From Thermodesulfovibrionales bacterium (GTDB lineage Bacteria; Nitrospirota; Thermodesulfovibrionia; Thermodesulfovibrionales; Dissulfurispiraceae), in assembly GCA_030017995.1 (NCBI GenBank), contig JASEGS010000014.1, positions 1 to 41,278 on the forward strand: DNA of 41,278 bases. The letters run 5' to 3'. Positions 30,309 to 41,278 of the stretch are shown here, piece after piece. Below the pieces are notes generated by a model that had not been told where the DNA came from, ran no database searches, and was given only the letters and a program-made list of their open reading frames with translations. The translations under genes and the position numbers were made by a program. Positions within the stretch are counted from its first letter, which is position 1. Each line of letters begins with the position of its first letter.

Positions 30309-31352
30309 TTATCCTGTTACAAATATCCTCTTATCTCCGTCTTCCCATTTAATCACATCGCCGATATAGGCAGCCGGGATGTCCTCCTTCTGCAGCGCTG
30401 CAACAAGTCTATCCCTTTTTTCTTCCTGAACAAAGATGAGAAGCCCGCCTGATGTTTGGGCATCATTCATCAACACCCTGTGGGTTTCAGGGACGTCACT
30501 GTCCCACTCTACATTCTGGGCAAAGCTTTTCACATTAGCCCATGTGCCGCCAGGGATTATACCCATGCTTGCAAGTCTCAATGAATCTTCGAAGAAGGGC
30601 ACACGGCCTGAATAGAGCCTTGCGCTGCATCTGCTCGCAGTAAGAACCTCGTTAAGATGCCCGATGAGGCCAAAGCCGGTTATGTCAGTGGCAGTGCTTA
30701 TGCCTATCTCAAGCATTATCTCGCTTGCCCTTTTGTTAAGAGCGGCCATAGATGCCATGAACTCTTCTATCACAGCATCACTGCATTTTCCGGCCTTTAC
30801 CCCTGTGGAGATAATGCCTGTACCGATCTTTTTGGTAAGTACAAGTGAGTCTCCTATTCTGGCCTTTGTATTGTCGAGGATTTTATCTGGATGGATTAAG
30901 CCCATCACTGTATAACCGAATTTCGGTTCTTTGTCCCTTATGGTATGTCCCCCTATTATAGCTACTCCTGCCTCTGCCATTTTGTCAATGCCGCCTTGCA
31001 TGGTCTTTTTAAGATAGGGGAAGAATTCAGGCTGCGGCGGAAACATGGCAATGTTCAATGCAGCAACAGCCCTGCCGCCCATTGCCCATACATCTGAAAG
31101 TGCATTTGCTGCTGCTATAGCCCCGAACCAATAGGGGTCGTCAACAATAGGCGTAAAAAAGTCAGTAGTGAGGACAACAGCAGTCTCATCTGTAATCTTG
31201 TAGACACCGGCATCATCTGCATTGGCAGTGCCCACAAGCACATTGGGGTCAGTAATTTCTGGCAGCTGCCCCAGCACCTGGAACAGGTCCGAAGGACTGA
31301 ATTTTGAAGCTCAACCTGCGCAGCTTGAAAGCTCTGTGAGCCTTATATTCAT
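30309..31352 (-). CDS. selD: Selenophosphate synthetase with in-frame Sec codon (TGA)
   Basis: SelD makes selenophosphate from selenide and ATP, the selenium donor for Sec and selenouridine. The conventional frame begins with GTG at 31277 and omits the catalytic end. Read upstream through the TGA at 31311-31313, the N-terminus becomes MNIRLTELSSCAG-U-ASK..., lining up with E. coli IRLTQYSHGAGCGCK: U14 matches the catalytic Cys17 and Lys17 matches Lys20. The ATG at 31352 lies five bases after GGAGG; the ATG at 31355 is too close. The corrected protein has 347 residues, against about 347 for E. coli. NADDAGV, TTDFFTPIVDDPYWFG and DPQTSGG-like NDAQTSGGLL are intact. It is first in the selD-TauE-DsrH unit. 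Confidence 0.92.
31276..31288 (-). promoter_or_regulatory. Candidate bacterial SECIS hairpin in selD
   Basis: On the minus strand ACCT (31288-31285) and AGGT (31279-31276) pair around a five-base loop GTTCC. The fold can also be written as ACCTG-TTC-CAGGT, five pairs. The loop begins 26 bases after the TGA, within the usual 16-37 range, and a G is in its first position, as bacterial SECIS elements require. A neighbouring GTCC-TTC-GGAC hairpin competes with it. The stem is short, so this is only a candidate. Confidence 0.45.
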
Positions 31353-31508: not shown

Positions 31509-34500
31509 CTATATCTTTACAACCTTCACCCTCGTGCTGCTGAAGTCTGGAATGCCTCCTACAACATCAACCATAGGCGTATTCGCAAAGTCTTCATCAA
31601 GCCGTGTAACATAATTGGCCTGTATGCCTGCTCCGTGCTTAGGGTTGGGAATAAGGCCTTTCTTGTCAGCGACCTTCTTTCCGCCGAGGAAGACTGTTTC
31701 AGCATTCTTCACAGGCACGCGGCCAGCGCCCATCTGCGTATGGCCATAATGGTTCGATACGCCTACACATCCCGGCCTTATGAGTTTTGTGACCTTTACT
31801 TTGCCGACAACACCTTTCGGATTGCTCCTTGAGACGAGCTTTACCTTGTCCATATTTTTGAGTCCGAGCCTCTTTGCATCAGCCTCATTCATCTCCACAT
31901 AGTTCGTTGGAAACACCTCCATTGACCACTTGTGAAGCACTGTCCTTGCCTGCGCATGAAGGTTCATCTTGTATGTTATTACGGTGAATGGATAGTCTTT
32001 ATCCGCATCTTCAATTATTCTTCCCTTAGGCGTCATCGGAAGCGTATGTTTCAACGTGCCTGAGAAGTACTCGCCTGTGATGGAGTTCTTTGTGGTTGCG
32101 AGTTCCTCGTTATAAAGAACAACCCTCTTGAGCCCAAATTTGTGCTTTTCACCATCAAATACATCTTCGTATCTTTTGTCAAATACGCCTCCCCTCGCAA
32201 GCGTATAACTGACCTGTTTCCATTCGCTTTCCGGAAGCATATCCTTGTGTTTTGCAACAGGGTAGTTCTTTTCGACAAAATCCATCTCCTCCTGAGATGC
32301 TTGAGAAACCTTTGCGCCTGTTGCAACATTTGCGATAGCCCTTAGGTAATAGTCTTCAGCTTTGTTGAGCGGATACATCTTCCCATCTTTACCTTTGATG
32401 GCATTGTCTCCGAAGCCGGGCAGCCCTGCCGCCTTTGCGATATCAATTAAGAATGTCTCTTCAGAGAATGGTCTGCCATCAGATGTTGTGCCTGTAAGAG
32501 GCTCAATTGTCGGGGTGCGCACTCCTGTAAACTTGAGGGCAGGCGCATGGGGTGTGAGGAATCCGTAGTGCCCCTCTGAATAAGTAACATCAGGCACTAT
32601 ATAGTCAGCAAAGATGTTTGACTCATTTATCGCGATATCAATAGAAACATGGAGCGGCACTTTATCGCTATTTTTCAATGTCTCCATGTAGCGATAGCCC
32701 CCGGGTATTGAATAAACAGGGTTAAAGAAGTAGGAGATGAATATCTTGCAGGGATACGGATATTGCTGGTCAATGCCGCTCATTGCCTCAACACAAAGAC
32801 CGCCCAGTGAAAAAGGGAACCACGGTCTCTTTGACGGATAGCCGTTCTTTTTGTATTCTGTTGTCTTTTCATAGGCAAACTTCTCTCTTGAGATGATCGG
32901 GCCCTGCAGCTTTCTCTTGCCTGCGAAATCCTTGAGGTCATACATGCCGGTGTTCCATGCGGCTGCGCCGCCTCCGCCTTTCATGTATCCTCCCTTCCGG
33001 TCAACATTTCCAACCATCGCATTGAGAACTGCCACAGGATAGGATGCATAGGTTCCGCTTATATAATTTCCTGCGCCGTGATACTGTGTAACAGCAGCCC
33101 TTGTGCCGTGAGAGGTAAATTCGCGGGCAACTTCTTCGAGCTTGGATTTTTCAACATCTGCAATCTTTGCGTACTCATCAATGGAACGCTCCATTACGCC
33201 TTCTTTCATAAGGCGGAAGGAGGTCTTTACCTTTATCTCTTTGCCTGCTGTGTCTTTTACAGCCGCCTCTGCGTCAAGAACCGCATTTTCAACCTTATCA
33301 AACGCAACAGGCATGTTGTCTTTTGAGAGAACGACAAAGGCATTTCCTGCATCACCTGTCAAAGCGGGGTCAATATCGCTCATTCTCAGGAATTTCCTGT
33401 TGTTTTTGTGCTTGTCATCCACAATCACTAAGTGGGCTGCATTGGAGTAGCAGGCGTGTCCCCTCTTGTCAGCAGCCTTTGGATTCGGCGCAGTGAGGAA
33501 TTCCTTATTGTACCGGTCGTTCTCTATGATCCATCTTATCATGCCCATTGCAAATGCGCCGTCCTGTCCGGGCTTTATGGGTATCCAGTTTTCAGCATGT
33601 GTAGAGGCATGGGTTGCTCGAGGGTCAACAATTGTAAATTTTACCTTGCCTTCAGAGTTCCTCTTTGCTACCATCGCGCCATAGGTGTTTACTCCGGGCT
33701 GTAGAGCCTCATAGATATTGGAGCCAAATACGAGGATATATTCAGCACTCATCGGGTCTGCCTTTATCTCAACATCCTTTCTCTCTGTAAATGCCATGTT
33801 TCCCTGCCTGAAGCCGATGCCGCAGATATCAGTATGCCCGATGCGGTTTGCAGAGCCGAGCGCCTCTTTCACAAACCTGTCAGAGAACTCCTTCCTCGCA
33901 TTCTGATCCCTGCCTCCTATAAAGACAAGCTGATTCCTTACAGAACCAAGCTCAGGCGCGTCGGGATTTATCAGGTCGTCTTTGTTTAAGTCCTTTATGC
34001 CTGGGACGACTCTGTCCTCGCCTAAATGTGCAAAGACCTTGCCTCCACTGGCAACCTCATTTATCAATTGCTCCCACTCAATAGGCTCAAACTTGCCTGA
34101 GCCCCTCTCGCCTGCTCTCTTCAAAGGCTTTATAATCCTGTAAGGATTATGCGCATAGTTCGGCGCATCCTGTGATTTTCCGCAGACAGGGGAGGATATG
34201 TTCAAAGTATCCTTGACAGGCGTATTGTACGGAATTGGCTCAAATCTTGTGTTATAAGGGTGGTACGGATTGCCTGAATGCTTTACGAGCTTGCCGTTAT
34301 CAACAACTGCCCTTACACCACATCTGGCATTACACCCGAGGCAGACGGAGTGAACTACCTTCACATCCTTGTCAAGCTGGGTTGCGGCTGATTTCTGAAC
34401 CTTGCGCGGGCTCAGCCAATTCCCATATTTCTTGGCTGCTGCCCGTGCCTTTTCAACTCCGAAGGCAAGCGCTCCTGCTGCTGCAGCAGCAAGTCTTATA

Positions 34501-34559
34501 AATGAGCGACGGGTTACGGAAACGCCGGATTCTATAATCTTGATAATACCTTCTTTCAT
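31509..34559 (-). CDS. TtrA-like molybdopterin oxidoreductase, catalytic subunit
   Basis: This is a 1016-aa bis-MGD molybdenum enzyme of the DMSO reductase superfamily. It has a Tat signal (TRRSFIRL, residues 16-23, hydrophobic to about 40). Its N-terminal [4Fe-4S] ligands are Cys73, 76, 80 and 126, and the likely Mo ligand is Cys246 in TDICGIG. Segments such as GSGKFEPIEWEQLINEV and NWIPIKPGQDGAFAMGMIRWIIENDRY recall tetrathionate reductase TtrA and the related arsenate/selenate group, so the substrate is most likely an inorganic oxyanion or sulfur species. It overlaps the Fe-S subunit gene by ATGA. No NrfD-type anchor is visible beside it. Confidence 0.85.
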   Translation of the reverse strand: MKEGIIKIIESGVSVTRRSFIRLAAAAAGALAFGVEKARAAAKKYGNWLSPRKVQKSAATQLDKDVKVVHSVCLGCNARCGVRAVVDNGKLVKHSGNPYHPYNTRFEPIPYNTPVKDTLNISSPVCGKSQDAPNYAHNPYRIIKPLKRAGERGSGKFEPIEWEQLINEVASGGKVFAHLGEDRVVPGIKDLNKDDLINPDAPELGSVRNQLVFIGGRDQNARKEFSDRFVKEALGSANRIGHTDICGIGFRQGNMAFTERKDVEIKADPMSAEYILVFGSNIYEALQPGVNTYGAMVAKRNSEGKVKFTIVDPRATHASTHAENWIPIKPGQDGAFAMGMIRWIIENDRYNKEFLTAPNPKAADKRGHACYSNAAHLVIVDDKHKNNRKFLRMSDIDPALTGDAGNAFVVLSKDNMPVAFDKVENAVLDAEAAVKDTAGKEIKVKTSFRLMKEGVMERSIDEYAKIADVEKSKLEEVAREFTSHGTRAAVTQYHGAGNYISGTYASYPVAVLNAMVGNVDRKGGYMKGGGGAAAWNTGMYDLKDFAGKRKLQGPIISREKFAYEKTTEYKKNGYPSKRPWFPFSLGGLCVEAMSGIDQQYPYPCKIFISYFFNPVYSIPGGYRYMETLKNSDKVPLHVSIDIAINESNIFADYIVPDVTYSEGHYGFLTPHAPALKFTGVRTPTIEPLTGTTSDGRPFSEETFLIDIAKAAGLPGFGDNAIKGKDGKMYPLNKAEDYYLRAIANVATGAKVSQASQEEMDFVEKNYPVAKHKDMLPESEWKQVSYTLARGGVFDKRYEDVFDGEKHKFGLKRVVLYNEELATTKNSITGEYFSGTLKHTLPMTPKGRIIEDADKDYPFTVITYKMNLHAQARTVLHKWSMEVFPTNYVEMNEADAKRLGLKNMDKVKLVSRSNPKGVVGKVKVTKLIRPGCVGVSNHYGHTQMGAGRVPVKNAETVFLGGKKVADKKGLIPNPKHGAGIQANYVTRLDEDFANTPMVDVVGGIPDFSSTRVKVVKI

Positions 34560-35248
34560 AGCGAACCTCCCTTTGCGCTGCGGCGATTCAGCACATATCT
34601 GATATTCGGATTCGTCTTCTTATCTGGCTTGCGTGTCTTCAAGTCAGTTCTTTTAAGATATTCTGCAAATTCACCTTCAGGCGCATTAAGGTCTCCAAAG
34701 AGCCTCGCGCTTGCCTCGCATGCCTCAACACAAGCAGGCATCAAGCCCTGCTCAAGCCTGTTTATGCAGAAGTCGCATTTATCAACCTTGCCTCCTGCCT
34801 GCCCTTTATATCTCGTATCGAGAAAACGAGCCTCATACGGACATGCAGGCACGCACGCGCCTATGCCCTGACACTTGTCCCAGTCTGTTACAACAATCCC
34901 ATTAGGCAGTTTAAATGTCGCTTTCACAGGACATGCAGGCACGCAAGGCGGATTTTCGCACTGATTGCACTGTACCGGCGTGAATACTATCCTTGATTCG
35001 GGATAGTTGCCGTCTTCCATCGTAAGCACCTTTGTGTTGAACTTGTCCTGCAATGTCTTGTTCTGTGCCTTACATGCGATAACGCATGACTGACATCCTG
35101 TGCAGCGGTTGAGGTCAATTATCATGCCGTATTTCTTTGTTTCGGCTGCTGCCTCGGCATTTGGCGTCTTTGACAATGCGGCTATACTTACTACTGTGCC
35201 GGCCATTGTCAGAAGACCGTTTTTCAAAAAAAGCCTTCGTTCATTCAT
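34556..35248 (-). CDS. Fe-S electron-transfer subunit (TtrB/PsrB-like)
   Basis: This is a 230-aa ferredoxin-like beta subunit that would pass electrons to the TtrA-like protein. The ATG at 35248 is chosen because AAGGAGG lies four bases upstream; an ATG at 35263 would swallow it. It opens with a Tat-like ERRLFLKN. Cys sets are 49-52-55-59, 94-97-102-106, 126-132-136 and 158-161-173-177. The third set has Ile129 where Cys is expected (CQGIGACVPACP), so it may carry a [3Fe-4S] cluster as in NarH/DmsB-type proteins. Both subunits would fold in the cytoplasm and be exported. Confidence 0.85.
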   Translation of the reverse strand: MNERRLFLKNGLLTMAGTVVSIAALSKTPNAEAAAETKKYGMIIDLNRCTGCQSCVIACKAQNKTLQDKFNTKVLTMEDGNYPESRIVFTPVQCNQCENPPCVPACPVKATFKLPNGIVVTDWDKCQGIGACVPACPYEARFLDTRYKGQAGGKVDKCDFCINRLEQGLMPACVEACEASARLFGDLNAPEGEFAEYLKRTDLKTRKPDKKTNPNIRYVLNRRSAKGGSL

Positions 35249-35291
35249 ACATCCTCCTTTCATTGGCTCCCCACGGGAACCCTATAACCTA

Positions 35292-35687
35292 TCAGTATTT
35301 CTTTTTCCCCTTTTCCTTCACAAAGACCGCTACCTTCTTTACCACAGGCTTACTTGATTCTCCAGAGATAATAAGCCTTACAATATAGGAACCCGGGTCC
35401 TCAAATGTGTGTGTGCAGTTCTGTCCGGCGCATGTGGAGCTGTCCCCAAAATCCCATAGAAAACTCTGTGCCTTTCCTTTTAATATCTTTGCAGTGAAAT
35501 TTACATCCAGCGGATTAATGCCAATCGGCGGATCTATCTTTACAGACACTTCAAGCTCGTTAGTGCGGATGACAGTAACTGCAGGATCGACATCAAAAAC
35601 CGGATCGTCGGTCAATGCGCAAAGAGCATGCGCATGGGTAGAAATCACCAATAGAGAAAATACGATAAAAAAATTAAATAGCCTCAC
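35292..35687 (-). CDS. Small secreted PKD-domain protein (second of two)
   Basis: This is a 131-aa exported protein: signal peptide to about residue 22 (ISTHAHA), then a single PKD/Ig-like domain with the marker SFLWDFGDSS and TFEDPGSYIVRLII. Two Cys in STCAGQNC may form a disulfide. The start is GTG with AAGGAAGG six bases upstream. It is related in layout and in its FLWD-GD core to the next PKD protein, suggesting duplication. PKD domains usually mediate binding to proteins or polysaccharides; the role here, inside a respiratory operon, is not known. The C-terminal KEKGKKKY is basic. Confidence 0.7.
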   Translation of the reverse strand: MRLFNFFIVFSLLVISTHAHALCALTDDPVFDVDPAVTVIRTNELEVSVKIDPPIGINPLDVNFTAKILKGKAQSFLWDFGDSSTCAGQNCTHTFEDPGSYIVRLIISGESSKPVVKKVAVFVKEKGKKKY

Positions 35688-35709
35688 CGAATGCCTTCCT
35701 TGCCGGTCT

Positions 35710-35727
35710 TCGCATCGCCTGATGCGA
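35710..35727. repeat. Intercistronic hairpin TCGCATC-GCCT-GATGCGA
   Basis: A perfect seven-pair stem with a four-base loop lies between the two PKD genes. There is no T-run after it on the minus strand, so it is more likely an mRNA-stability or processing element than a terminator. Confidence 0.6.
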
Positions 35728-35739
35728 TTAGGCAGTTGG

Positions 35740-36099
35740 TCAACCGCCCTTTCTTCTTAGTATGTCTATTACCATCTTTTTTGTTACTGTCTTGCCAGCG
35801 GCATCTGTTACAGTAAGCGTAATATCGTATGTCCTGCCTCCTCTTTTATAAACATGCGTGAATTCCTGCTCTTTATACTTTGTCCCGTCACCCATATCCC
35901 ATAAAAAACTCTTTGCTTCAGCGCCTTTTACAACAGCTTTAAACTCTATCTCCTGAAGCCCCTCTGGAGAAGGAGGGTCATACTCTATCTCCACCTCAAA
36001 GGCCGATGCAGTGTTGACCGCAAAAGCCAGTAGGAATAGAGAAAAGACGAGCATATACGATGTGTAATGAACAGTCCTTTTCAGAATTAAACCTAACAC
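35740..36099 (-). CDS. Small secreted PKD-domain protein (first of two)
   Basis: This is a 119-aa exported protein with a long signal sequence (hydrophobic YMLVFSLFLLAFAVNTASA, cleaved near residue 35), then one PKD-like domain (SFLWDMGDGTKYKEQEFTHVYKRGGRTYDITLTVTD). The start is GTG with GGAGG seven bases before it; an ATG at 36054 would also give a signal peptide. Core sequence FLWDMGDG matches FLWDFGDS of its neighbour. It lies between the porin gene and the other PKD gene in the Mo oxidoreductase operon. Its partner or ligand is unknown. Confidence 0.7.
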   Translation of the reverse strand: MLGLILKRTVHYTSYMLVFSLFLLAFAVNTASAFEVEIEYDPPSPEGLQEIEFKAVVKGAEAKSFLWDMGDGTKYKEQEFTHVYKRGGRTYDITLTVTDAAGKTVTKKMVIDILRRKGG

Positions 36100-36172: not shown

Positions 36173-37729
36173 TCAAAAATGCACATCAAACGATGCATAT
36201 ATGTTATCCATTGTCCTCGGTGATGGGAAAAGCAGCATTGGGTTGCCGCTCAATTCCTTAGGTTCGCCGAGCAGCAGGCCGCTTCCGCTGTAATTGAATA
36301 CATAATGCTGATAGCCGAGCCTGAATAAGACCTTGCTGAGTTTCCAGACAGGCTTTTTCGTCAGATCATAAATCCAGTATGCTTCGCCAACATGCCCCCT
36401 TGTTGCAAGCTTGCCTCCATAGATGTCATCAGCAGAAGGCGTAAAGTTTATCCAGTATTTTGAACCATAGTTGTATTCCAATCCGAACTTGCTTCTGCCA
36501 TAAGGAATCCTCAGTCCCGCATAAAAGGCATATCCGGTATGCCCCTTTTTTTCACCGCCTTCATCATAGAGGAGACCGCCGGGGGACATTGTGAGATCTA
36601 CAACCCCATCACCATCCATATCTACAGGGGCGCTCCAGCCTGAAATATCTTTTGGGTGTGTCTTTGAAAGTCCTGCGGATATAAACCAATCAACCCCGGA
36701 GGTCCTTGTCATAAAGAGTGCTACCGCATGGTCAATGTCTCCAATGTTGGCGGTTGCCCTTTCAGGCAGGTCATTGACATTAAATGCCCTGAATATCTGA
36801 AACTGTGCAAGAGTCCCTTTCCCTGCATCCTCATATATGTCAAAGTTAAATCCCGCAAAAGTAGCATCCTTAAGGGTGTTTATATTATCGTCTCTAAGCC
36901 CTGACTCAAATCCTTTCCCATAGCAGAGACGCGCCTTAAATCCAGGCAGTGATTCTATGTCAGGATTATAAATAACAACAAGCCCATCCATCGCATAATC
37001 AACGCCAAGCCCGGCAGGTGTTGCATCACGCTCAGTGCCTTGCCTGAGATGCAGAGGAGGGCCTCCTGCAGACGGCCTCCTGCCAATGGATATTATGCCC
37101 GGGAATCCCCCGGGGTCATACCAGTTAAAATACGCCCTGTCAACTCTTAAAGCGCTGTCAGCAGGCTTATATGTGCTGTTGCCGTCAAAAAGGATTGAAT
37201 TCTGGGACATAAAACCATTGGCGTCAAGAGGTGCTGATGTCTCCTGTCCCCATATCTTATACATAGCAAGCCTTGCTGTGAAATCAACATCTTCTGTTGC
37301 CTTCACCCTCATCTTTAGCCGCAGGCGGTTTGTGAGGAGGGTATCATCATGAGCAGTGAATTTGCCATACTGTCTTGGTTGAAAAGCGCCTATATCAGGA
37401 TTCCACCTAAATCCTGTGAAATCATCAAACCGCGCATGAACAGAGTCCAGCTTGAACCTGTATTCTCCCCATATCTCGAATCTTGAGAGTCCTTCACTTT
37501 TCTTTGCCGTTTTCTCAACATCCTTTATCTTCTTTTCCTGTACAGTGTCTTTCTTTTTTAAGTCCTCGACCTGTTTTTTTAGAGATTCGAGTTCTTTCTT
37601 TACATCATCCATCTTTTTCAATTCTTTTGTCAGTTCGTCAATCCTTTTTAAAATCTCAGACTCTGACGCAAATGAGGATATCGGAAAAAGAAAAGAGAGG
37701 ATTACGAAAACTGCAACAAATCTCTTCAT
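36173..37729 (-). CDS. Outer-membrane porin-like beta-barrel with coiled coil
   Basis: This is a 518-aa protein. A signal peptide (residues 1-21, ending SSFA) is followed by a Lys/Glu-rich coiled coil (about 25-75), then a long beta-strand-rich region with alternating aromatics (FEIWGEYRFKLDSV, RLRLKMRVKATEDVDFTARLAMYKIWG), ending in IYASFDVHF, the C-terminal Phe signature of barrel assembly. The layout recalls porins with a periplasmic coiled-coil stalk. A wider open frame exists upstream but the ATG at 37729 overlaps the torD stop (ATGA) and has AAGGAGG nine bases before it. Its place in the operon suggests it admits the enzyme's substrate, but this is inference. Confidence 0.8.
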   Translation of the reverse strand: MKRFVAVFVILSFLFPISSFASESEILKRIDELTKELKKMDDVKKELESLKKQVEDLKKKDTVQEKKIKDVEKTAKKSEGLSRFEIWGEYRFKLDSVHARFDDFTGFRWNPDIGAFQPRQYGKFTAHDDTLLTNRLRLKMRVKATEDVDFTARLAMYKIWGQETSAPLDANGFMSQNSILFDGNSTYKPADSALRVDRAYFNWYDPGGFPGIISIGRRPSAGGPPLHLRQGTERDATPAGLGVDYAMDGLVVIYNPDIESLPGFKARLCYGKGFESGLRDDNINTLKDATFAGFNFDIYEDAGKGTLAQFQIFRAFNVNDLPERATANIGDIDHAVALFMTRTSGVDWFISAGLSKTHPKDISGWSAPVDMDGDGVVDLTMSPGGLLYDEGGEKKGHTGYAFYAGLRIPYGRSKFGLEYNYGSKYWINFTPSADDIYGGKLATRGHVGEAYWIYDLTKKPVWKLSKVLFRLGYQHYVFNYSGSGLLLGEPKELSGNPMLLFPSPRTMDNIYASFDVHF

Positions 37730-38427
37730 GCTATATATCCTCCTTCTGTCTTCAATGTTTCTGACAGCCAGCAGATTCTCAAATAATCCGTGCTGATCAT
37801 GCCCTTTAAAATCTTTGCTGCACCTATATAAAAATCGTTGTTTGCCTTGCTGCATACATCTTCTGCAAACAGGTCTGCCCATTTGCAGAGATGGTTTTCA
37901 AGAAATTTCTTCTGATCATTAAGTAGTTCAGCAGCGCTCTTGTAATCCTCTGATTCCAGCGCCTTTGCGGTTTTATCAGCCAGAATATACATAAACTGGA
38001 GTTCAAAGCCGATATGGTCGTCAGGTTCTTTATTCAGCCTTTCAGGCAGCAGTCTGTGCTTCGCATAATATTTGCGCACATCTAAGGTTTCGTTTACGGA
38101 AAAAAGCCGGCCGCTTCCGAGGGCAACGGATTCCCATGGAGAGACAAGGGGTTTCCCTGCGCCTATAAAAAGTGAGGAATACTCTGAAGACAGTTCATCA
38201 AGGAGGTGTTCTGTGGATACCTTTTTGTTTATATAACCCTCTATAAGTTCTATACCTGCTTTGATATTTTCATCGTCATTTATGTAAGGCAGAAAAATCA
38301 GGACGTCATTGCCTTTGATGTTTTCTATAAAGTCTTTAGATGCCTCTTCAATAAAGCTCCTGAAAAGGAAACTGTATCCGAGTGTCCTTTCGTCAAGTTC
38401 TGTTATGGTCTTAAAATCCGCTTTCAA
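37726..38427 (-). CDS. torD: TorD/DmsD-family molybdoenzyme chaperone
   Basis: TorD-like chaperones bind the Tat signal of molybdoenzyme subunits and hold them until cofactor is inserted. This protein is nearly all alpha-helical and has the family motif SPWESVAL near residue 95 and EPDDHIGFELQFMYILADKTA near 133. Length is 233 aa from a TTG at 38427, which sits five bases after AAGGAGG. The ATG at 38454 lies inside a strong hairpin upstream of that ribosome site and is rejected. It is encoded between the two Fe-S/Mo modules and could serve both alpha subunits. Confidence 0.85.
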   Translation of the reverse strand: MKADFKTITELDERTLGYSFLFRSFIEEASKDFIENIKGNDVLIFLPYINDDENIKAGIELIEGYINKKVSTEHLLDELSSEYSSLFIGAGKPLVSPWESVALGSGRLFSVNETLDVRKYYAKHRLLPERLNKEPDDHIGFELQFMYILADKTAKALESEDYKSAAELLNDQKKFLENHLCKWADLFAEDVCSKANNDFYIGAAKILKGMISTDYLRICWLSETLKTEGGYIA

Positions 38428-38443
38428 GGTGTCCTCCTTTTGG

Positions 38444-38473
38444 TGCAGGGGCATGGTTTGCCATGCCCCTGCA
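38444..38473. repeat. Perfect 13-bp intercistronic palindrome
   Basis: Arms TGCAGGGGCATGG (38444-38456) and CCATGCCCCTGCA (38461-38473) pair perfectly around TTTG. The hairpin lies just before the Shine-Dalgarno of torD and nine bases after the Fe-S subunit stop. It has no T-run on either side. Confidence 0.8.
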
Positions 38474-38482
38474 TATGCTTAC

Positions 38483-39283
38483 TCATACTATCTTTGGTCT
38501 CACTATGGTATTAGGTTTTGTAATATCAGGAGGCGCTGCTCCTACCTTTGTAAGGTCCCTGGTAAATTCATCAGCATGCTGCTCATCAGGAGGTATCCCT
38601 TGTTTAACCTCAAGAAATTTTGTTGCGCCGCCGTCTGAAGAATCAGCCTCCTTGCCCTTGTATCTGCCTTTATTGTTACGCACAAGATTGTATGGTTTTG
38701 ACGGATCATCAGTTATCTGAAGCGCCCTGCCGATACATACATCCACACATGCCGGCCTTTTTACTCCATCAGCATCAGGTCTTTTGAGTCGTGTTAACAC
38801 GCAAAGGTGGCATTTCTCCATCACCTTTGATACAGGGTTCCACTGCGGTGCATCATAGGGACATGCCTGTTTGCATGCGCCTCCGCATTTTGCTTTGTCA
38901 GGATCGCAGTTTTTTGGAGTGCCGAGTTTTCCATTCTGGATTATAACTGCTCCGACTGTCTTTTCCTTGTAAATTGCACCGCTGGAGTCAAATAGGTCTT
39001 TGCCCTTCAGAGGACATGCCTTCCAACATATAGGGTCACTGCAGTGGTTGCAGGACATTGACAGGAAATATGTCCCGGGCCCATCTCCGAGTGTGCGAAC
39101 CCTGCGGTATCTCGGTCCTTTTTTCTCAAGCTCTTTAAGGTCTTTGAAATCAACCTTTATCGGCTCTATACCGCTTCCTTTACTGTGCCCGACATGAACC
39201 TGATTTTCCATCTTGCAGGCTGACTCGCAAGCATAGCAGCGGACGCATCTATTGGAATCGTATGCATACATATACTGTGTCAT
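38483..39283 (-). CDS. Fe-S electron-transfer subunit (DmsB/PhsB-like)
   Basis: This 266-aa beta subunit carries four cluster Cys sets: 13-16-19-23, 78-81-86-90, 126-133-137-141 and 158-161-179-183. The third has unusual spacing (CX6CX3CX3CP), but all four Cys are present. It has no Tat signal, so it probably travels with the partner alpha subunit upstream. A 55-residue C-terminal extension after residue 205 is Lys/Asp-rich and unlike other members. It starts 14 bases after the alpha subunit stop, with GGAGG before the ATG. Confidence 0.85.
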   Translation of the reverse strand: MTQYMYAYDSNRCVRCYACESACKMENQVHVGHSKGSGIEPIKVDFKDLKELEKKGPRYRRVRTLGDGPGTYFLSMSCNHCSDPICWKACPLKGKDLFDSSGAIYKEKTVGAVIIQNGKLGTPKNCDPDKAKCGGACKQACPYDAPQWNPVSKVMEKCHLCVLTRLKRPDADGVKRPACVDVCIGRALQITDDPSKPYNLVRNNKGRYKGKEADSSDGGATKFLEVKQGIPPDEQHADEFTRDLTKVGAAPPDITKPNTIVRPKIV

Positions 39284-39297
39284 TGTCTGTCACCTCC

Positions 39298-41278
39298 TTA
39301 TGCCTTTTTATAAACGCGGACTCTTGTGCCGTGATAGTTGGCGCCGCCGCTTATGGGTTCGGTAAGGCTCCAGATTACCTTGCCTGTGTTTATGCCGGTA
39401 TTCTGGTGTCCGTCAGGCTTGCTCCATACATATTCGCCCTTATACTTTGCATCAGGATCGTCCGGAAGCTTTTGTTCAGGCCATTTAGCTCTTGATGAAT
39501 CCAGTCTGTTTGACCTGCCGTCAACGCTATATTTACCGAAGTATTGATGCCCGAATATGCCGCAGATGCCTACAACGCCTTGTCTGATGCCCTTTGTTAC
39601 CCTTGCAGGCCCTTCAACCTTTTCAATACGGTAGCTGGTTGTGCCTGTTGTCCTCTGCCTTGCCTCAACAATAACCCTGTCGCCGTTCTTTATGCCGCGC
39701 TTGCCTGCATCTTCAGGATTGATTACCACCTCATTCTCCCAGATAATCTCTTTGAGCGTGGGCTGGTTGGAGAGTCTTGTCTTTGTAAAGGTGGCTGCCT
39801 TAAAGGTAATGAGCGACAGGTCATCCTCAGGTCTTGCAAGAGATGTATCAAGAGGCACCCATTCAGGAAGTCCGTGATATGTGGTATTCCCTCTTTCTGC
39901 TGAAAGCCCTTCCTTGCCTTCTCCCGGACTTGGAACCCCTGCCAGTGTAATTGCAAATGCCTGAACCTTGAGGTTTGCCTTTGCCTTTGTCCTGTTGCCC
40001 GGAACCCCAGTAATATCGGACTTCTCTTTGTATGTGCCTACTGCTCCGTCAAGATTTACAGGTCCCATTGAGAATTTGTTAACTCCAGCATACTTTCCGC
40101 CAAGTGCAGAGCGATCTTGTGCGCTCCATACGGACGAGTTGCCTTTAAGTTTTGTCTTCTCTCTGAGAACACTGCCCGGCGCAGAGATAATGTTTCCAGT
40201 GAGCGTCACATCAGATGCAATTGTATGGTCCGAAGTCAGCCTGTTAGCAGAGATGCTTCCGCCGATGGCCTTCTGGTCTGCCGGATATGGAATCAGTGTG
40301 CCTGCCTTGAGCATTGTCCCTGCTGAAAGCATAGAACCAGGAAGAATATCTATCCCGCCTGAGACGGTCAGAGCAGATGCCAATGTCTGGTCTGCCGCAA
40401 GATTGTTTGTGTCTGTCTTGTAAAGGACGCCGTTTGCCATGAGGTAGTCAAGCCTCTTTTCATCAGTAGTGGCGTCAACAAAGGACATGCCGTTTGCCTC
40501 AACCATAAGCTGGCCTATGTCAGGGTCAACTGCGCCAGCGCCAGCGCCTTTAAAGCCGGACACTGCATCGGCAGGTATTGCTCCCATTGCCCTTATCCTC
40601 ATCTTATGCCAGAATAGAACTCCATAAGGGTCAGCAGTGCCGTTTCCGCCTGCATCCTTTGAGCCATACCTTATTCCGTTGCTGTCTGCAGGTCCTGCCT
40701 TGCCCATATCATCCCAGCCGGTGATATTGCCTTTGTCATCAAACTTATATGTCCTTGTTCCCCATGCGTAGCCCCAGTTTATGCCTGCCGGTTTTCCATC
40801 TTTCATCACAGGTCCGGTGTAAGTGCCGTCATGATTTATCATGTTGAGAACATCATAGTAAATCTCCCGCAGGTCCTTTGCTTCAAATAGGGCTCCGTTT
40901 GCAAACTTCCCTGCCCGTGCCTGTGAAATATCAAATAGCACAGGCTGACGCAGGTTTGTCTTTTTCACATAGCAAGTCCAGAATGCCGGCACATACTCCC
41001 ACCTCTCAAGATATGTCTCAACAGGCAGGATAATATCAGCATGTGCGCTGTAGTCGCCGAGATAGGTGTCCATGGCGATGTGATACGGGATCTTTTTGGT
41101 ATCTTTCAGCACAGGTGTTACAGTGCTGTTGTCTGGGAATGAGAGTGTATAGCCTGTAAACTGCTGCATGATAACGCCATAAGGGAATACCCTGCCCAAG
41201 TTTGCGAATATGTGGTGCGTGTTTTGTTCCTCAGCCCACGGGTATGAGTGATGGAGTAATGCATGTTTGAGATAGGGA
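39298..41278 (-). CDS. Molybdopterin oxidoreductase alpha subunit, C-terminal part
   Basis: About 659 residues of a Mo-bis-MGD oxidoreductase of the DMSO reductase superfamily are visible; the frame is open to the window edge, so the N-terminus, Tat signal and Fe-S/Mo ligands lie outside. YLGDYSAHADIILPVETYLERWEYVP is the family block for the cofactor domain, and INPEDAGKRGIKNGDRVIVEARQ is the MGD-binding C-terminal domain. Between them (about 40096-40407) is a two-copy insertion of about 50 residues each, with GSMLSAGTMLKAGTLI-like hexapeptide steps. The TTG at 41199 is not a start. Substrate is not decidable from this fragment; polysulfide, arsenate and similar enzymes are relatives. Confidence 0.85.
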   Translation of the reverse strand, partial: PYLKHALLHHSYPWAEEQNTHHIFANLGRVFPYGVIMQQFTGYTLSFPDNSTVTPVLKDTKKIPYHIAMDTYLGDYSAHADIILPVETYLERWEYVPAFWTCYVKKTNLRQPVLFDISQARAGKFANGALFEAKDLREIYYDVLNMINHDGTYTGPVMKDGKPAGINWGYAWGTRTYKFDDKGNITGWDDMGKAGPADSNGIRYGSKDAGGNGTADPYGVLFWHKMRIRAMGAIPADAVSGFKGAGAGAVDPDIGQLMVEANGMSFVDATTDEKRLDYLMANGVLYKTDTNNLAADQTLASALTVSGGIDILPGSMLSAGTMLKAGTLIPYPADQKAIGGSISANRLTSDHTIASDVTLTGNIISAPGSVLREKTKLKGNSSVWSAQDRSALGGKYAGVNKFSMGPVNLDGAVGTYKEKSDITGVPGNRTKAKANLKVQAFAITLAGVPSPGEGKEGLSAERGNTTYHGLPEWVPLDTSLARPEDDLSLITFKAATFTKTRLSNQPTLKEIIWENEVVINPEDAGKRGIKNGDRVIVEARQRTTGTTSYRIEKVEGPARVTKGIRQGVVGICGIFGHQYFGKYSVDGRSNRLDSSRAKWPEQKLPDDPDAKYKGEYVWSKPDGHQNTGINTGKVIWSLTEPISGGANYHGTRVRVYKKA

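Follow-up and report, generated by a model that had tools for sequence, protein, structure and literature searches.

A truncated molybdoenzyme gene at the contig end

The stretch of DNA that was analysed, here called the window, is a whole contig of 41278 bases. At its far end, the minus strand encodes part of an alpha subunit of the Mo/W-bisPGD (DMSO reductase) superfamily, namely its C-terminal 659 aa (39298..41277). The reading frame is open at its 5' end and runs off the contig; because the contig ends inside the gene, the N-terminal part of the protein is missing. In the genome of origin, an assembly of 1.70 Mb in 55 contigs with a completeness of 96.9%, none of the matches to PF00384 and PF04879, the N-terminal domains with the Mo ligand, was recognisable as an orphan piece. 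A Molydop_binding domain (PF01568) is found by Pfam at residues 487-592 (39502..39819, minus strand), with an E-value of 3.9e-10 and a score of 40.2 bits against a cut-off of 26.8. This assigns the protein to the DMSO reductase superfamily, and so the first-pass annotation was right to place its repeats inside a Mo oxidoreductase alpha subunit. The truncated 659-aa protein does not reach the curated NCBIfam cut-offs for named subfamilies (PhsA, DmsA, TtrA, ArrA and others), with all scores far below them and the best being that for PhsA, at 57 bits against a cut-off of 694.

The alpha subunit is followed on the same strand by an iron-sulfur beta subunit of 266 aa (38483..39283; Fer4_11, with DMSO_dmsB as the best NCBIfam model, under its cut-off), a TorD/NarJ-type chaperone of 242 aa (37726..38454; PF02613) and, further downstream in the same direction, a DUF3373 protein (36173..37882; Pfam).

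Searches of 60 relatives, 176 genomes of the order, 395 genomes of the phylum, genome contigs and viral contigs turned up nothing closely homologous to the alpha subunit. The best homologues show approximately 30% identity overall, with a maximum of 47% in their best short segment. In a tree of 65 rows the protein sits on the longest end branch, at 2.53 changes per column, and its placement is unsure due to that length. For the beta subunit there was no match at E 1e-30 in 229 genomes of the class except in its own genome, and judged by these searches it is equally isolated within its class. Among solved structures, the best matches of the family profile are Thermus thermophilus PsrA/PhsA (thiosulfate/polysulfide reductase, 2vpw) and ArrA (6cz7), with E-values of 7e-35 and 2e-33, respectively; without the family profile, the window protein alone reaches 2vpw at an E-value of 8e-5 only. 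In both structures, as in the window protein, the end of domain III is followed by the molybdopterin-binding domain.

An insert ahead of the molybdopterin-binding domain

After its Rossmann-like part and before its molybdopterin-binding barrel domain, the alpha subunit carries an insert of about 108 aa, which in hexad register comprises 18 hexads at residues 293-400 (40078..40401, minus strand), on the evidence of anchor distance, self-alignment and hexad count. The corresponding site in Thermus PsrA (2vpw) lies within the 23-residue stretch 559-582, just ahead of the TASGKIELY segment, and the insert is present in neither PsrA nor ArrA (6cz7). To measure the region across homologues, we used as anchors residue 85 (the proline of ILP, ahead of TYLER) and residue 487, where the binding domain starts. 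These are 402 residues apart here, compared to 142-236 residues in 103 homologue frames, a count in which some genes appear twice under different loci (e.g. L002, L003, L011) and which excludes frames without both anchors as well as the window, L001 and L055 frames. In an alignment of 14 rows, most of the repeat columns are blank in the other 13. The same alignment shows further extra stretches in the alpha subunit between residues 120 and 285, so that the insert accounts for approximately 108 of at least 166 extra residues. A paralogue of the same superfamily within the window, a tetrathionate reductase alpha-like protein (31509-34559), also lacks the insert, and its linker between matched stretches is 196 residues long, compared to 396 in the query.

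The first-pass annotation had described the insert as unfamiliar in DMSO reductase enzymes, and the comparison with homologues bears this out, as it is missing from all 103 frames measured. Its presence, and its absence from sampled relatives, are seen directly: the insert is real and is lineage-restricted among those relatives. It could be widespread in a lineage outside the sample, and its clade of origin is not traceable from the sampled genomes. In the open-licence PubMed Central literature, no beta-helix, beta-solenoid or hexapeptide insert in molybdopterin/DMSO reductase enzymes was apparent among the matches listed. The kind of enzyme is known; on the sequences compared, what is new is a two-copy insert of about 108 residues at a site where no sampled relative has one.

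The insert is an internal tandem duplication, again observed directly. Copy 1 spans residues 287-340 (40258..40419, minus strand) and copy 2 spans residues 341-396 (40090..40257, minus strand). Their aligned cores, residues 291-340 (40258-40407) and 345-394 (40096-40245), align by BLASTP without gaps, with 20/50 identical residues (40%) and 30/50 positives, at an E-value of 1e-11 for the single comparison. The local score between copies is 92, whereas none of 20,000 shuffles exceeds 52. Among all 50-residue self-diagonals of the 659-aa protein, the one at an offset of exactly 54 scores highest (92, with the runner-up at 23). The two segments of about 50 residues reported earlier are thus located where they were claimed to be. 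Compared as DNA, the two copies match at 52% of first, 59% of second and 31% of third codon positions (77/162 in total). The greater likeness at positions 1 and 2 indicates an old duplication in which the protein sequence has been kept. As a separate observation, a perfect 12-base direct repeat occurs within the insert at 40272-40283 and 40386-40397, 114 bases apart, and codes for ADQ at both places.

A six-residue rhythm in both copies

The repeat unit of 54 residues equals nine hexads. Across the insert, L, I or V occupies one hexad phase (the first position) in 13 of 18 hexads, a count reached by 2 of 50,000 permutations. As the copies are kin, tests on each copy weigh more than this pooled figure: in the same phase, copy 1 has 7/9 hexads (148 of 100,000 permutations) and copy 2 has 6/9 (1272 of 100,000). 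Two hexads in each copy are off the rule, with a third in copy 2. The best 108-residue window of the alpha subunit outside the insert gives no more than 8/18. The six-residue steps proposed at first reading are therefore real.

PMC538250 describes the left-handed beta-helix (LbH) as having three hexapeptides per coil, with the motif [LIVMA]-x3-[ASCVTN]-x and positions i and i+4 pointing inward. In the insert, the inward aliphatic position i recurs every six residues, and i+4 is not enriched. The full motif is found in 7/18 hexads, a count that is equalled or exceeded in 1104 of 20,000 shuffles and is not significant. On a hexad matrix derived from five LpxD proteins, the insert scores 16.5, a value reached by 11 of 3000 shuffles and by 0 of 2507 windows of other, unrelated frames (maximum 15.4), and far below the 45-91 of true LpxA windows. 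Because position i fits, the full motif does not and the matrix score is lower than that of LpxA, we describe the insert as hexapeptide-like, and not as a hexapeptide protein proper. It resembles LpxD and other hexapeptide LbH proteins in its rhythm and its aliphatic position i, with LpxD a recurrent weak match, but differs from them in having no Pfam Hexapep match and no acyltransferase context.

Sequence searches with the insert

Searching with the insert alone returned neither a relative nor a family across Pfam, PHROGs, the PDB, phages and plasmids. There was no Pfam family at E 10 (Hexapep included), no PHROG family, no phage match and only plasmid matches at E 2 or worse. The sole PDB match of the single insert sequence, chain 5lqx_H, is at chance level (E 0.27). 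Viral contigs gave no match to the enzyme, a three-row alignment, the insert or the repeat alignment. Overall, neither phages, plasmids and viral contigs nor the sampled genomes yielded a relative of the insert.

Weak SIMILARITIES with the insert as query in the genomes of the 60 relatives gave 14 non-self matches (E 0.05-0.63). Eight of these frames were scanned with Pfam and five carry LpxD and Hexapep, whereas a shuffled query gave 12 matches, with neither Hexapep nor LpxD in any of the 10 scanned. The LpxD genes are orthologues and so count as one observation. Against the PDB, a profile of the repeat matched only two sequences, CcmN (E 0.023) and a gamma-carbonic anhydrase (E 0.8), both of which we take to be left-handed beta-helix proteins. 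Two column-shuffled profiles and one reversed profile, run as controls, matched 2, 14 and 8 sequences, and no LbH protein was named among them. Control matches on other folds reached E 0.019 for a shuffled profile and 2e-12 for the reversed one; as two of the three controls thus have E-values as good as or better than that of the real profile, the PDB E-values are not evidence alone. The direction of the weak matches (LpxD, CcmN, gamma-carbonic anhydrase) towards LbH proteins is suggestive, its significance not being established.

At E <= 0.01, and leaving aside its own genome, the repeat profile also matched one of 230 genomes of the class and seven of 390 of the phylum. The match in G023 is antisense to a gene, presumably of flagellar type, and those in L166 and L167 are antisense to a frame that we take to be fliQ-like; L168 and L169 show the same peptide, and all of these are regarded as chance. 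The matches in G424 and G341 are presumed to be chance as well.

Structure prediction

An AlphaFold model of the full 659-aa fragment, built with 50 relatives, has a mean pLDDT of 54.2. The binding domain is modelled well, residues 289-443 are below 50, and the insert, which no relative covers, is at about 24-40. When modelled alone, the insert has a mean pLDDT of 45, with a middle part at 55-66 in which two-residue strands recur about five to six residues apart. A fold search using this weak model (Foldseek, VIA-align) found nothing. The low pLDDT coincides with the absence of aligned relatives, and the models as predicted give no decision for or against a solenoid or disorder. Of the likeness to a left-handed beta-helix noted at first reading, the hexad rhythm stands statistically, but the full motif is not significant, the models are weak and the fold search is empty.

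Possible fold and role of the insert

The reading we tentatively prefer is that the insert is a folded beta-solenoid serving as a non-catalytic contact module on the enzyme surface. Its repeat pattern suggests that it is probably a beta-solenoid, of unproven handedness. The duplicated 54-residue unit would fold as a small solenoid, in which the nine hexads per copy would make three coils if left-handed. This would jut out where a linker on the surface joins domain III to the domain IV barrel, and might act as a rigid arm through which the enzyme docks to a partner or to a second copy of itself. We infer the fold, the surface exposure and the contact role, and a contact module is proposed since the insert has no recognised cofactor motif. 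If the insert is indeed a folded solenoid, it would show how respiratory molybdoenzymes can gain a contact surface near the domain IV junction with the active site untouched, and would single out an alpha subunit that has diverged deeply and has the longest branch in the tree. Domain IV, which comes after the insert, is discussed in PMC5123574 as a lid that may serve where the cofactor enters, and is reported there to be immobile in NarG; a role for the insert in maturation is speculation.

A serious rival, if on balance rather unlikely, is that the insert lacks both a fold and a specific role and is a flexible spacer of low complexity, lengthened by duplication in an enzyme that evolves fast. 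The pLDDT below 50 over residues 289-443, the length of the tree branch and the extra loops between residues 120 and 285 are all consistent with such a spacer, which would make the insert an ordinary lineage-specific insertion. The hexad rhythm and the codon-position pattern, which indicates that protein sequence was kept, argue against it.

We consider it unlikely that the enzyme is trimerised by the insert as a true left-handed beta-helix module of the hexapeptide type. The rhythm, the three hexapeptides per coil that make 54 residues equal to 3 x 18, the matches to LpxD, CcmN and gamma-carbonic anhydrase, and the homotrimeric active form that PMC538250 gives for all LbH members would suit this reading, but i+4 is unenriched, the matrix score is far under that of LpxA, and each copy has its rule-breaking hexads. 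More doubtful still is the specific proposal of a left-handed beta-helix arm, grown by duplication in the catalytic subunit of a respiratory molybdoenzyme, that would trimerise or dock the enzyme and thereby lend it a quaternary form not known to us in this superfamily.

The insert is rich in A, S, G, L and T and resembles the openings of secreted surface (beta-helix) proteins, in keeping with a right-handed beta-solenoid or other Ser/Thr/Gly-rich beta repeat acquired as a surface module, but we think this improbable given that there is no Pfam match at E 10, that no match of that class arose in the searches and that strict six-residue spacing fits it less well.

Other features of the locus and genome

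In the beta subunit (38483-39283, 266 aa), the spacing between cysteine motifs looks greater than in the DmsB model (161 positions). Two short PKD-domain proteins are encoded at 35292-36099, with the DUF3373 gene on one side and the tetrathionate-reductase-like genes on the other. The latter form a second Mo enzyme pair (31509-35263) that includes an Fe-S subunit, with TtrA as the best NCBIfam match (592 bits against a cut-off of 1750), and an AIR-synthase-like gene, possibly SelD, is seen at 30309-31277 of the window. Outside the window, the genome has a further Mo oxidoreductase frame (G000:C51:30963-32234) with a single in-frame TGA that possibly encodes selenocysteine.
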